A DNA stretch of 64,000 nt from the NCBI GenBank assembly GCA_036674765.1, contig JARVKI010000126.1, positions 40,275-104,274 of the forward strand, in the 5' to 3' direction. This DNA comes from Seiridium cupressi (taxonomy: Eukaryota > Ascomycota > Sordariomycetes > Amphisphaeriales > Sporocadaceae). Made by a program: the position numbers and the translations under genes. Under the pieces are notes generated by a model. The model searched no databases and was not told the origin of the DNA. It saw only the letters and a list, made by a program, of their open reading frames with translations. Position 1 is the stretch's first letter. Every line of letters starts with the position of its first letter. Shown piece after piece: positions 18,820-61,562 of the stretch.

Positions 18820-21040
18820 CTACAGGAACATGTGTCGGCTATCAGCATCCTTCCTCGATGCGCCTGGTGCCGTATAGTCCACGCCACTCAAGCTGGTGAG
18901 GTCCTTCTCGAACGTAGCCTGGATCTTGGTGACCTGCTGCAAAGTCTTCAGATCCAACTTGATCTTGTCGAATGTCGCCAAGCTCTCGGCCGCCTTGATG
19001 ACGTTCTTGATCTGTCGACCGTTGAGGTCGTGCTCTGCAAGGATGGCGATGCCGACATCATCGATGTCTACACCACCTGGCACCATCTTGCAGAAGTTGC
19101 GCCAGATCTGCATGCGCGACTCGATCGACAGATCGGTATACCTGATCGGAATGTGGATTCGCGACTTGAATGCATCGTCGAAGGTGTTCACTCGGTTCGT
19201 GGTCAAGAAGAGGATGCCGGAGTAGTACTCCAGGACGCGAAGAAAGACGCTGACCATAGCATTGCGGTGGAGATCATGGAGGGATCGTTTCTCGAGGAAG
19301 ACGTCAGCCTCATCGATGAGCAACACAGCGCGCCATGTCGATGTCATGTCCATGATCCGTGTAAGTTGGTGATCGAGATCCCCACTGGTGGTACCGAGGT
19401 CGCCCGAGGATACCATGTAGAGAGGCCGTCGAACGAACTCAGCCACGCACTCTGCTCACACGTTAGTAATTGTCATTTCATTTCATTTCATTTCATCCAT
19501 GGCACAAGGACATACCGGCCGTCAGAGTCTTTCCCACTCCCGGTGGGCCGTGCAGCACACACACAAGACCTTGGCCTTTGCCCTTAACGATGTCGTCAAA
19601 GGTCTCGCGCTTCTCTGAATGAGTGGACACGAGTGCTTGCACGGTCTTCTTCGTGCCGGCGTCCAATACCAGATCATCGAAGCACCGCGTGTTCCACTCG
19701 ATGGGGAAGAGCTGGTCCGCGAAGAACTCGAGGAACTTTTTGGCCGTAAATGAGTAGCCTCGCACTGTAGCATTGCAGAGCAAGACATCCTCATCGGACA
19801 ACCTGTCATGCACGACCTCCTCTGACACAAACTCGGTGTTGCCACGAGCCCGCTTGCGTGCGCGATCATTTTTGGCAGATTCATCATTAGTCAACACCTT
19901 GACATGGAACGAATCGTTAGGCTCGATTCGATGGTAGGTCTTGCAGTCGATCATAACACGCCCGGTGACATTGAAGCGCGCGTATCCCTTTTGCATCTTC
20001 TTGAGCGCGATTCCGTTGTATTGGACGAAGTGCTGGCCGATGTAGCTCTCAAAGGTCCTGCCACGCTCGTACAGGTCCTCACGCACTGCATTGGCATCTT
20101 CCAGTAGATGAAGCGGCATGGTGGGCAGCTCGCCAAGTTCCTGTGTGCCACCGTACTTAGGAATGAATAGCTCCATCTTGCGGTTGCCGAGTCGCTCGCC
20201 GTCGAAGTCGACGAACTTCACCTTCAGGCCTAGACCTGGTAATTCGCCATAATCGTACCACGACTCCGTGACGCGGAAGGCTCGATGCTGCTCGAGAAGC
20301 TCACTGTAGATGATTGTGCTGGGCGGGAACAGCGTCCACAGATAGTCGTATCCGATAGCCTTGACGTCGCCATTGACACATCTCTTGTATGCGGCAGTGT
20401 CCGTTTCGAAATGTGTGGCGATCCAGGAAAGCAGCAACTTGAGCTGTGACAATGACTCATTGTCCTCGTCTTCCTCAAATCGCTTGACGCCTTGCGACTC
20501 AATCTCTTCTCGGTAATAGAATAGTGCGTGATATGGTGCCTCGATCTGGACATCATCCACGTCAATCGGGTCCGAGGGGTAGCTGCCAATGACATCGTAA
20601 AGCAGCTGTCTGATGGGCTGTGGGTTCACGTAGAGCCGTGTGTAGCTGAGCTCATTCTCTGTGTCGTAGTGCCTAACCAGGCAGAAGGCAAACAGCCGCC
20701 ACCAGTCCTTCTGCTTGGGCTTCTCAACGTCGTTCTTCCGCTCCTCAAGGTACTGCTCGTCTTTATCGTCATAACGACGATCGAGATGCTTGATCTCGCA
20801 CTTCATGGTATCGTCTTGGGGCTCTCCGTCTGATGACTCTTTGCCCTTCACTCCCGCCTCATCCTTGACGTCGTCGGTCTTGACCGAAGCCTCGCCGTTG
20901 GAAGTATCAGATTCCTTCTTGCCGTTGACATGGCCATTGACGATGGGAATGATCACATCCTTCGTTGAAGAGGTCGGCTCACCACCTCCCTCCCCGGTTA
21001 CGAGAATGCTGGGGGCCATTGTAAGGAATGTAGTGGCCAA
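18820..21040 (-). CDS. DUF7025-AAA ATPase
   Basis: Two exons, 21040-19516 and 19451-18820, join in phase across a 64-nt intron and give 718 aa. The N-terminal 90 residues are low-complexity and acidic. A central region of about 250 residues (WWRLFAFCLVRHY... to ...GRVMIDCKTYHRIEP) fits the fungal DUF7025 domain found ahead of AAA modules. The ATPase core has Walker A GPPGVGKT (498-505), split from its following helix by the intron, Walker B LLIDEAD (552-558), sensor-1-like FLTTNR and a C-terminal lid (LNGRQIKNVIKAAESLA). It should hydrolyse ATP to remodel a protein or complex; the Bcs1/spastin-like class is the nearest broad group, the client is unknown. The intron carries a pentanucleotide repeat. 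No signal peptide or membrane span. Confidence 0.9.
19474..19498. repeat. CATTT pentanucleotide microsatellite inside the AAA gene intron
   Basis: Four to five perfect copies of a 5-bp unit lie inside the only intron of the AAA gene (19452-19515) and occupy over a third of it. Length changes here would not touch coding sequence but could alter splicing distance. Confidence 0.85.
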
Positions 21041-22329: not shown

Positions 22330-22349
22330 TAGCTATCTGACTAAACTTC

Positions 22350-23000
22350 GGAACATGGAGCGGTAGATACAACCGACCAGTCGCTGGAGTGGACTAGGCT
22401 GAGGGAGGCGCCGCCAACCATTTCGTCAACACCATTGAGACTGTTATTGGCGCCGACGGGGCGACTTGGGCGACGCATCAAGCATCGATTTGGCGATGGC
22501 GGGCAGAAAACCAAGAGGATTTCGTGGCTCACATGCAGTAGACACTGCCGCCAAACTTCACCGAAGCCGGCCATCCTCTCATCGTCAACCTGAACGGCCA
22601 TAAGGGACCTGATCCCTTATTCCTCAAGATCACTTCCACCCAGACCTACACCTTCAATGCGAGCTTGACGTATGATCCCGACTCTCCAGCAGACAACAGT
22701 AAGCTGTCATTCGAGTGGGCTCTATACTCCGATCCAACCAAGTTTCCGACGGACCTTGATGTCCAAATAGAGGCAGTTGGTGAATCAGGCGGTGTGTTGA
22801 AAGTGAATGATGCTGGGTTCTCCAATGCGACACTGGGCCAGCAGATACAGATCACTGTGCCGGAGGTCGAGAGGAACACGGGTGCTAGGATTTTGGCCGA
22901 TTTCCATCTCCTCTTGCAGGTCACCATCAGTGGCGGCAAGTACCCTATCCGGAGATATCTGAGGATCGTCTGCGAGTGCCCAGTCGGTGCGGTCGCGGTA
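22350..23000 (+). other. Inverted block D of the DUF1593 pseudogene (C-terminal domain)
   Basis: A 651-bp block carrying the C-terminal half, reading on the plus strand against the rest of the gene. It is bounded by TTC (22347-22349) and GAA (23001-23003), a 3-bp inverted match. Turning it back joins NGIF to GTWSGRY in frame and places GTT TAG directly after VAVE, i.e. a stop codon at the expected protein end. Confidence 0.8.
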
Positions 23001-23100
23001 GAAAATTCCGTTCTGAACCAGCCATAGGAAGCTAGGCGTGTCGCCCTCCATGGTGTAAATGATCTGAGGATACTGAGATCCGAGCAGCCCAAGTCAGATA

Positions 23101-23254
23101 GGCGCATGGATCCGTTGTAAATACCCGGATATCTTTTACATCGTTTCCATTCCCCTTGGAACGACTATGACCTGGCCACATGGACATGTATCGGTCTGAA
23201 GACCTGCACATGTGCAGAGAAACAGGCCGTGCAGAAAGCGTGGCTGGATGAGAA
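23101..23254 (+). other. Inverted block B of the DUF1593 pseudogene
   Basis: A 154-bp block bounded by ATA (23098-23100) and TAT (23255-23257). Turning it back joins SDQDDI to GAWIRC and WLDEN to I*LGLLGSQYP, both in phase. It contains a 14-bp perfect palindrome at 23204-23217. Confidence 0.8.
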
Positions 23255-23850
23255 TATGTCATCCTGGTCGGATATAGTGTAGAGCCTGATACGCGATCGC
23301 AATTCGCTGGCATCCGATAGCGGTAGAGTTTGATCCATCTGTAGTAAGGCTTGAGCGACAATGTTGGTGTCTCCCCAGACAGCGACAAAGAGCGGTTCGT
23401 CGGACTCCTGTAGGCTGGCAATGAGACGTAGTTCACCCTCGCTGACCGTCTCATTGAGAGCGGCTCATCCATATGTCTGTGGTGTATTAGCAATCACTAA
23501 CGGCTTGATGCACGAGAAAAGCTATACCTTTGGCCCAGACGTAACGACCTGGGTCAAGTTTTCGGCGTGCTAATATAATGCACTCGGATGGACATGTTGA
23601 TTCAGATCATCCACCACCTATCCATACTTGCCAATGATGCTCTCCATTTCCTAAGGGTGGGTTTCGTTCGGAAGCCACCATGACGTCGTAGCACATATGC
23701 CTCTCGTGTCAAACTCATTCATGAAGATAGCGTACGAGCGACATGGAATCGTCCGGCTCGTGAAGTATATTGGACATGATGAAGATCCAGGGCTCGTAGT
23801 CGAATTGCTGCAGGTATGCTGTAGACGAATCCTCGCTATGATCGCGACTG

Positions 23851-25441
23851 TTCAAGGGAGGCCCCGGCGATTTGCAGAGCAAAATGCGCATAAGACCCCC
23901 GAGAAAGCTGATCCAATCATCTTCCTCCACGTTGGAATTGATTGGGAATTCTGGATTCAGGGTGCTTCTAGTGCTCGGTCGTATGGTAAAGTATTTATGT
24001 TATAGACCTCAACTTTAGTAAGTCGACCTGTGTCAAGCGTGGGCCGCGCTCAGTTCAAATCTCACCATATAAACTCTGCCCTCGTACTCGTAAAGGTTCA
24101 TTGCACACAGATGAACAACCGACAACCGTGCTTTATATATCAACAGCCAATATATAGAGCGTCGCTGCCAATTACCCATAACATCAAGGACATGTCGCCA
24201 GAGCGCTGACAGAACCCTAGGGCGGTTCGCCATTCCCATTCGGGCCATGGACAAAATCCAAATCTATAAACGGTTCCCCACAAGCCAATCACGAGGTGTG
24301 GATTCCTCCTACGGCAATGGAAATTTCTTGCTTTCCCGCTCATCGGCATGTCAAGATCAAGTACCGAGACCCTGGGACAAGTGTGGGGGACTTCTGTGGA
24401 GTATGGGGAAACATTATCCGCCTATTTACATACAGTAGTGCCCACCAGTAGCGTGTTCTAGGGCCCTTCTTCCAATATTAAAAGGTGTGATTTTATCTCT
24501 CACCGCAGATGAGCTTGTTAAATTGTGTTGTCAATCGGCCTTTCCACTGCATGGGGGCTATGTTGCGGACAACTAGCCGACATCTGATTATGGGGAGCTG
24601 TGCAGGGTTGAGGGACTATCATGGGCCAACAGAGGCTTGCCGATTTCGCAGCCGCAACTGGCTATTCTTGTCCAAGGCACAATGCTCTAAGCTCATATAA
24701 TGTATAACTTGGCTTCATTCCTAGGTTCTGAGTGTTCTATGTACTTGGCTCAAGGGAGACGGCTGTAACACCTAGGACTGAACATGGCCGACTTCGCCTC
24801 TTACCGTATGGGTATCTCAAATAAATCAAATGGCGGCTCACGGAACCATCAAGATTATCGAGCACAACAAGGCATAGAGACTTTTATCAAATCCGCTTTA
24901 TTGCGTCTACAATCTAGGGCCAGTAGATATGTGGGCAAAATCCGGCCAAACCAAACCAAACCAAACGCCTGCCACATAACCTGTGGACTTCCATTTTCGC
25001 TGCGAGCCATGCCAAACCGTGACATAAGACATTCTATACCATATAAGAAACCTTTTCAGATCAACCAATGGTAGAAATAGACATTTCGCAGTTTTTGAAT
25101 TTGTTGCTGGCTTTCAGTTAACCGTGCTGGAGTTTTACATCCAGCAAAAAATAATGCATGTGGAGTCGGCGGCAGCTCTATTCTCAAGAGTTCCTCAAAT
25201 AACTTCAACACATGCAGGCGATCGGATGGCCCTACCGTGGAGGTGGAAAGAGAACAAAGAAATGCCAGCATAATCCAATGGAATCACCCTATTGTTTACT
25301 AGGCTCTTCAATGACGCGGCCATGGCCAGTGACTTTCGATAGCGACCGAGACTTGTTTATGATGGATTGATGACCTAAGATCCGCTCAAGGTTGTGAGCC
25401 TTTCTGGCAGCGTGCTTCTTGGCGCATGGCCCCATCAAGGC
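23851..25441. other. Intergenic, downstream of TFIIB
   Basis: No gene recognised. A plus-strand frame at 24784-25074 has no motifs and spans the CCAAA repeat; I do not call it. Confidence 0.4.
24946..24966. repeat. CCAAA microsatellite
   Basis: Four tandem copies of a 5-bp CCAAA unit plus a trailing C, in the gene-free stretch downstream of TFIIB. Confidence 0.8.
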
Positions 25442-26594
25442 CTAGTTGCTGGGCAGCTTGGCCATGTTACCAGGGCCATCAGGCTTTAGCCATGACTTCT
25501 CAATCAGTTCGTCTCTAGCTTGGTAGAGGAACTTGTATGCGGTCTTGATGGTACCATCGCTGACACCCGCTGCGGTGGCGATATCACGCGACGGACGAGG
25601 ATCATCCAACAAGTTGCAGATCATGTAGATGCAAGCAGCAGCCACTGAGAGAGGCGATCGTCCAGCCAGGTCCTTGACCGTAGAGCTCTTGGACGCCAGC
25701 AATCTCGAGTACTTTTCCACCTGGTGGGGGTTGCGCAAGTTGAGCTGACTGCAGTACCGGCCACAAAGCTCCTCGGCACCGGTGGAATTGGTGTTCTCGT
25801 AGGTATCGAGGGAGTACAGGTTGGCATTGGCTGCATCATGCTCTCGCTGGGTCATCAAGAACTTTTCGAGTTGCTTGAACGTCCTCCCAATCTCCTTCTT
25901 GGACACATTGGTCAATCCATGGATTTCCTTGAAGGTACGGGCAAGGCGAGCCTGGCGGCATGCAATGAAGATGCAGCCAGCAATGATGGACTCTTGCGAC
26001 TTGCCCTTGAAGAGCTTGGCGTCGTCTGTCATCTTGTAGATGTGCTTGGCGCTCTCTTGCACGGTCTTGGGGATGTGGACAGCATCGCACAGTGAGCTGA
26101 TGTCGCCATAGGCAGCGAGAAGGCCCTTTGTTGCCTTATCTAGTTGCGAACGGTTCTGCGCACGGTGCAACTCTCGAGCGCGGCCACCTTCACCGAATGC
26201 GATACTTGTCTCGAGCTGTGAGCCGTTGAGGAGTGGGTTCATTGCGTCGCCGACACGCGAGGGGTCGTCATTGTTCTCGTCGTTTGCAAAGGTACGCCAT
26301 TCGGATCGAGTATCGATGATGCGATCGCCTAAGACCAAACCGCAGGTGGCACAGACAAGGTCGCCGCTCGAGAACTCCTCACTGTAGAACAATGTTAGTC
26401 CCCATTCTTATATGCCGATAGATAGGAACGGAGGGGATGTACGTCAAGTTGGGGGGATCCTCTTTGCACTCGGTACACATCAAGCGCGAATTGAGGTTCT
26501 CCCGAAACTCAGTCTTCTTCTGGCCATTCTTTAATTCCTCTTGCTGCTGCTTGTAGACGGCGAACGGGTCTTGCGCAACTCCAGCGGTAGCCAT
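25442..26594 (-). CDS. SUA7: Transcription initiation factor IIB (TFIIB)
   Basis: Two exons, 26594-26443 and 26381-25442, join across a 61-nt intron (26442-26382) to give 363 aa, normal for fungal TFIIB. The N-terminal zinc ribbon uses CTEC (Cys40, Cys43) and CATC (Cys61, Cys64), split by the intron after LT. The B-reader/linker follows (RIIDTRSEWRTF, DDPSRVGDAMNPLL), then two cyclin repeats, with diagnostic stretches KGKSQESIIAGCIFIACR and SPLSVAAACIYMI. The protein bridges TBP-bound promoter DNA and RNA polymerase II in the nucleus and sets start-site choice. An N-terminal extension of about 35 residues rich in Gln, Glu and Lys precedes the ribbon. This is a single-copy essential housekeeping gene and an anchor for synteny. 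The symbol is taken from the budding yeast orthologue. Confidence 0.95.
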
Positions 26595-61437: not shown

Positions 61438-61562
61438 GGCCGAGTCCAAAGCCTCCTAGTCGACTTCCATATTCGATACATCACCATCATCACGCTGCAT
61501 CTCACCACCAAACATCAACTCTCCACCAAATTACACTCTACACCAAACAGTAGTACCAGACT

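Follow-up and report, generated by a model that had tools for sequence, protein, structure and literature searches.

The genome of Seiridium cupressi (Ascomycota, Sporocadaceae), a fungus that causes cypress canker, harbours a DUF1593 gene whose segments lie alternately on the two strands. This raises the question of how parts of a single gene came to be reversed in place, and whether they were reversed together or at different times. The window, which is the whole stretch of 64,000 nucleotides that was analysed, corresponds to C126:40275-104274 within an assembly of 45.4 Mb and 228 contigs, and positions given below are those of the window. Neither a genome paper on S. cupressi nor a paired intragenic micro-inversion in a fungus was found in the literature searched.

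Identity, position and decay of the DUF1593 gene

The profile search returned two PF07632 rows at the locus (109.4 and 34.1 bits, curated cut-off 26.8), so that the nucleoside-hydrolase-like N domain is still detectable. The Sde0182_C domain (PF21027) was found on the plus strand at C126:62924-63247, window positions 22650-22973, with 35.9 bits against a cut-off of 27. The locus does not encode a working PF07632/PF21027 protein, as an intact reading frame is lacking on either single strand. Similar to the Sde182-like (DUF1593) proteins of Ascomycota, the window copy possesses both domains and is placed beside TFIIB, but stops, frame breaks and two inversions disrupt it. Among the matches listed, the nearest intact relatives are found in Truncatella angustata (P0121, 65% identity), Pestalotiopsis (P0122, 63%) and Neoarthrinium (P0123, 62%). 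Further relatives are DUF1593 proteins from other Sordariomycetes, and the read-through query shares 56-65% identity with the 23 orthologues compared.

Two paralogues are present elsewhere in the genome. The copy on C52 (L006, 499 aa) is an intact DUF1593 gene, and the copy on C82 (L007) is interrupted by an intron-like stretch and has an in-frame stop. In the whole-genome search with P0121 each of these copies lies on a single strand. The window copy is a third and more distant one, and a second DNA copy of the locus itself was not found in the genome.

A TFIIB exon is located at 25442-26392 on the minus strand, the strand of the original sense of the pseudogene, and this conserved neighbour marks the orthologous position. 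In Neopestalotiopsis clavispora the DUF1593 orthologue and TFIIB are numbered consecutively (G7054_g2855 and G7054_g2856), and in T. angustata both are listed with a contig of 2,455,471 bp. Judged by this gene order, the position of the DUF1593 locus beside TFIIB is conserved. On the other side, the minus-strand open reading frame at 19493-21040 has a DUF7025 domain, and by eye the minus-strand frame at 18820-19446 looks like the end of an AAA ATPase. The two frames resemble two exons of one gene, and the pseudogene lies between them and TFIIB.

Seven in-frame exonic stops were found in the gene, namely at 23651, 23618, 23570 and 23465 in segment 1, at 23094-23096 in segment 3, and at 22395 and 22539 in segment 4. 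An eighth stop lies inside a 51-bp GT-AG intron of segment 1 (23477-23527, minus strand). Two frame breaks were also found, one near 23724-23734 (segment 1) and one near 23152-23156 (segment 2). The window DUF1593 gene is dead, and the pseudogene is predicted to be non-functional as now arranged. The sequence-only reading had already called the locus a pseudogene, and the stops, the frame breaks and the alternating strands bear this out.

The intron of segment 1 coincides in position with the intron-like stretch of the C82 paralogue (L007 2761-2816), and the C52 paralogue has no such interruption. The C82 paralogue also contains an in-frame stop at L007 2964-2993, within an exon that otherwise aligns well. 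This copy may be decaying as well, or it may have a more complex exon structure.

Alternating segments and their breakpoints

The matches of DUF1593 homologues to the window fall into four collinear segments, in the strand order minus, plus, minus, plus. In tblastn with the C52 paralogue, residues 16-179 matched the minus strand at 23786-23258 in two frames, and residues 175-238 the plus strand at 23083-23258, also in two frames, with plus-strand homology proper from 23098-23101. Residues 240-277 then matched the minus strand at 23093-22980, and residues 276-476 the plus strand at 22344-22979. The alternating pattern was repeated with P0121, the closest intact orthologue, against the window as well as against the whole genome. 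It appeared again in the window tblastn with P0121-P0127, and with P0185 of Seiridium unicorne for the pieces which that protein covers. With P0121 the E-values were 8e-84 for segment 4, 3e-74 for the linked minus-strand pieces and 1e-13 for segment 2, therefore the alternating matches are above chance. A DUF1593 gene in four segments on alternating strands was the central claim of the sequence-only reading, which proposed tBLASTn with an intact homologue as a check and named a failure of the plus-strand segments to match DUF1593 as grounds for dropping the claim. The search gave the four collinear segments, and both plus-strand segments match.

Segment 1 (23258-23906, minus strand, tblastn with P0121, P0124 and P0125) is the unflipped N-terminal part of the pseudogene, with PF07632; its stretch 23819-23906 is matched only by P0123-P0125 and P0185, and partly. 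Segment 2, hereafter inversion A, is a 154-bp block flipped in place at 23101-23254 and now homologous on the plus strand by tblastn. It extends to at most 160 bp (23098-23257) if the ATA/TAT match of its ends is included. Segment 3 (22980-23097, minus strand) is the unflipped spacer that separates the two inversions, delimited by tblastn, orthologue comparison and a codon score. Segment 4, or inversion B, is a 630-bp block flipped in place at 22350-22979, now on the plus strand, with an ambiguity of 1 bp at its ends; it is supported by tblastn and by the profile match, as it holds the PF21027 domain. The ancestral gene's final two codons and its stop (E V stop, 22341-22349, minus strand) are unflipped, as indicated by the sequence and by orthologue ends, and inversion B now cuts them off from the remainder of the gene. 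Inversions A and B are spaced by 118-122 bp.

The breakpoints were set by comparison with 23 orthologues, picked from 120 listed, and the joins were read by eye from the window sequence and its translations against these orthologues. The precision of the four breakpoints is 1-3 bp. Segment 3 continues on the minus strand past NGIF, as NGIFYRDRTDW, to base 22980. All 23 orthologues have aligned residues at YRDRTDW, and in 17 of them the motif is exactly YRDRIDW. The stretch YRDRTDW (23000-22980) reached a score of 37.0, and among 5000 stretches of seven codons drawn at random from the window none came this high (best 17.6). Segment 4 accordingly spans 22350-22979 and 630 bp, because YRDRTDW belongs to the minus-strand segment 3.

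This moves one of the breakpoints proposed before. The limits of segment 2 at 23101-23254 hold, and the 3|4 join, formerly placed at 23000, lies at 22979/22980. The match of TTC and GAA, described earlier as microhomology, is consequently a chance match at a misplaced breakpoint, and the two ends of segment 4 have only 1 bp in common. The ATA/TAT match of 3 bp at the ends of segment 2 was correctly identified.

Read in the sense of the gene, the sequences across the joins are DQDD|IGAWIR, LDENI|(stop)LGLLG, RTDW|GTWSGRY and VCEC|EV-stop. All four are in frame and gap-free against the orthologues at codon resolution, with one residue at the 2|3 join being a stop. Four in-frame joins, including both joins of segment 2, had been predicted in the earlier reading, and of these NGIF/GTWSGRY is in fact RTDW|GTWSGRY. 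The end of the protein had been placed at VAVE and a following stop, which turns out to be an antisense coincidence. After VCEC, the last residues of segment 4, the gene read in its own sense goes on with E V stop at 22349-22341. Comparable C-termini are found in S. unicorne P0185 (VCESEV) and in P0122 (VCEYES), and most orthologues end in (C/L/F)EYxx or similar.

As the four joins are gap-free at codon resolution, both flips look balanced, with no detectable gain or loss of bases; the gap-free status was judged against proteins, so that balanced small changes could hide in it. By this comparison inversions A and B would both be classed as pure (balanced) micro-inversions, in which the reverse complement stands in place, the order is kept and no base is gained or lost at codon resolution. 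Given the four breakpoints, the only history of two reversals is one that flips segments 2 and 4 in place. Histories of one or three reversals over the same breakpoints were also considered, and they give no path.

The congener S. unicorne helps to date the flips. Its gene model P0185 (SUNI508_06981) encodes 316 aa, is devoid of the domain core and has an apparent out-of-frame stretch. The model looks broken, and the annotated protein is probably not real. P0185 was compared as a protein from this broken gene model only, and the 1|2 join lies outside its coverage; it is collinear across the other three of the four joins (2|3, 3|4 and 4|end), where it reads in a single direction from the 3' part of segment 2 through segments 3 and 4 to the shared ending. 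For this reason the flips arose most likely on the S. cupressi side, and they are likely to postdate the split of S. cupressi and S. unicorne.

Origin of the two inversions

End homology at the two inversions is short. The terminal inverted match is 3 bp in inversion A (P 0.05) and 1 bp in inversion B (P 0.44). The longest perfect inverted repeats linking the ends of the same inversion, within 15 bp of the ends, are 5 bp in A (P 0.42) and 4 bp in B (P 0.87), which is chance level. These statistics covered perfect inverted repeats, and nearly perfect ones were covered through a mismatch-tolerant list, in which no pair linking the two ends of either inversion was found. The Rfam and tRNA searches of the window gave no matches. 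No tandem repeats were found at the locus, the only array of the window being at 61501. Two clean micro-inversions with no long inverted repeat had been described from the sequence, and these results agree with that description; multi-copy sequence is likewise missing from the ends.

Non-homologous end joining after break and flip is expected to leave 0-4 bp of microhomology at the joins and no templated insertions. The joins here have 1 bp and 3 bp at the ends and no gap. On balance we favour end joining as the probable origin of the two inversions in place. Double-strand breaks would open at both ends of each block (23101-23254 and 22350-22979), the freed fragment would turn round, and non-homologous end joining would reseal it in reverse with no loss. 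The gene may already have been dead or dispensable at that time, in which case the flips would be neutral. Both could stem from one multi-break episode, a view suggested by the spacing of only 118-122 bp between them. Paired-break rejoining was one of two mechanisms put forward by the sequence-only reading, and it fits the balanced joins, the end matches of 3 and 1 bp and the block sizes. The other, fold-back template switching, is unsupported.

Fold-back template switching usually goes together with inverted repeats at the inversion ends. Since the own-end inverted repeats reach only 5 bp and 4 bp, at chance level, it lacks support here. More broadly, replication-based template switching or microhomology-mediated break-induced replication could have copied each block off the opposite strand and then returned, and these are known routes to micro-inversions. 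They were discussed for a set of 59 definite human-chimpanzee micro-inversions of 17-33 nt, with inverted repeats of 3-75 nt flanking every one of the 59 (PMC8755829). According to that study, the reverse complement matched exactly in 45 of the 59, and 8 of the 59 have 3-nt repeats only, which is as short as the end match of inversion A. An identical scar could also result from template switching that uses little or no homology. Against template switching, neither inversion has perfect own-end inverted repeats above chance, inversion B shares only 1 bp, and the blocks exceed those of the human-chimpanzee set in length by a factor of about 5-37 (PMC8755829). It would also need two precisely matched jumps per event in order to lose nothing. 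As an origin of the flips, template switching is therefore the less likely route, and we regard it as unlikely. Two-break end joining was set aside in the human-chimpanzee study, where breaks about 20 nt apart were deemed implausible (PMC8755829); this objection falls away here, because the blocks measure 154-160 and 630 bp.

A 10-bp perfect inverted repeat touches two of the breakpoints. Arm 1 (22333-22342) adjoins the outer breakpoint of inversion B, and arm 2 (23092-23101) sits at the 2|3 join, one of the breakpoints of inversion A. Eight of the 10 bp are within 15 bp of breakpoints, and with the four breakpoints slid along the window a match of this length has P 0.05 in inverted and P 0.09 in either orientation. 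The repeat is not significant, though its placement is odd. It could be taken to favour recombination between inverted repeats, or the action of a transposon or site-specific recombinase. Recombination at this repeat would flip segments 3 and 4 together, which is not the arrangement seen, and the locus has neither a second copy nor a tandem repeat. As a cause the repeat was rejected, since it pairs ends of different inversions at P 0.05-0.09, and recombination of this kind is extremely improbable. An assembly artefact, with the genome truly holding a continuous minus-strand gene, dead or alive, would agree with the collinearity of the S. unicorne model and of the orthologues. It would need two exact flips within one gene, in a genome with no second copy and no long breakpoint repeats to mislead the assembler, and the point decay exists independently of the flips. 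We consider an artefact very unlikely, if slightly less so than recombination.

The case favoured here, break and rejoining, can be set beside other systems. Like it, the human-chimpanzee micro-inversions are short blocks inverted in place in a pure, balanced form, and they differ in being 17-33 nt long and repeat-flanked, while the present blocks are 154-160 and 630 bp with end matches of 3 and 1 bp, two in one gene (PMC8755829). Flanking inverted repeats as in that set were not found here, although the 3 bp of inversion A would pass as its shortest class; with 8 of 59 having 3-nt repeats, inversion A by itself would not stand apart from the set. In mouse meiosis, pairs of neighbouring SPO11 cuts release fragments that measure tens to hundreds of bp and are inserted elsewhere (PMC12918824, preprint). 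Deletions in mouse can also carry locally inverted insertions, for which re-insertion or fold-back was proposed; these show microhomology at one breakpoint and are absent without end resection (PMC12918824). The likeness to the present locus consists of two nearby breaks, a freed fragment, end joining and inverted local sequence. The SPO11 products accompany deletions and use microhomology and resection (PMC12918824), whereas here nothing seems lost and the joins are near-blunt, and nothing at this locus points to SPO11.

Inversion is common in fungi, and 73 inversions were inferred in yeast gene-order evolution en route to Saccharomyces cerevisiae (PMC2675101). Those lie between gene blocks, whereas the present ones are intragenic. 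Micro-inversions disturb synteny in gene comparisons, as one study remarks in passing (PMC7028367). The present locus adds a clean case to a type of mutation already known; the pairing is unusual, and the locus is not a new system.

Inversions in the range of 100-1000 bp easily escape notice, as selection should purge them from functional genes and they tend to drop out of alignments. Where intact orthologues are numerous and a congener model is collinear, a dead gene serves as a natural recorder of short inversions. Close paired flips with no inverted repeats above chance suggest that clustered-break end joining, and not repeat-driven template switching, can invert DNA at this scale in this fungus. 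If this is true, micro-inversions should occur in clusters.

One episode or two

Two unrelated inversions may have struck the same neutral pseudogene at different times. Such a history is compatible with end joining and rivals only the single episode. A dead gene tolerates every change, and the sequence gives no relative dating of the flips. A chance double hit appears rare, as 0.0005-0.05 double-hit windows would be expected per genome with 10,000 neutral windows of 1.5 kb; this estimate uses the ape rate for inversions of 17-33 nt, about 1e-5 of substitutions (PMC8755829), with assumed divergences of 0.02-0.2, and may not suit fungi or longer blocks. We lean slightly towards one episode, and regard two separate inversions as somewhat less probable.

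Other strand-alternating genes were sought in the same genome with a survey of six families, in which 377 of 827 first-look candidates were scored and 375 rows obtained. Adjacent rows no more than 1 kb apart formed 75 pairs, every one of them on a single strand. Within 3 kb, 76 pairs were on one strand and one was on opposite strands. The opposite-strand pair (PF00732 on C43) was considered as a flipped gene and rejected, as its matches are each nearly full-length and lie about 2 kb from one another, which indicates two genes. No other strand-alternating gene was found in this survey, which has low sensitivity, the PF07632 search missing the flipped segment 2 at the present locus. The flipped pieces here do show with PF21027 or with orthologue protein searches.

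A more specific form of the single episode can be suggested tentatively, as a somewhat doubtful proposal of sub-kilobase "shatter and reseal". Four simultaneous breaks within about 910 bp would yield three fragments, which would be kept in order and losslessly resealed with the outer two reversed. In a bolder form, the breaks would fall at nucleosome entry and exit, where juxtaposed DNA ends would ease a lossless flip. The flipped sizes of 154-160 and 628-630 bp are close to one and four nucleosome repeats (157 bp), a match with a chance of about 18%, and the spacer of 118-122 bp does not fit this sizing. Nothing on inversion sizes in relation to nucleosomes was found in the literature searched. 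If the nucleosomal form were true, the lengths of micro-inversions would show a nucleosome-sized ladder.
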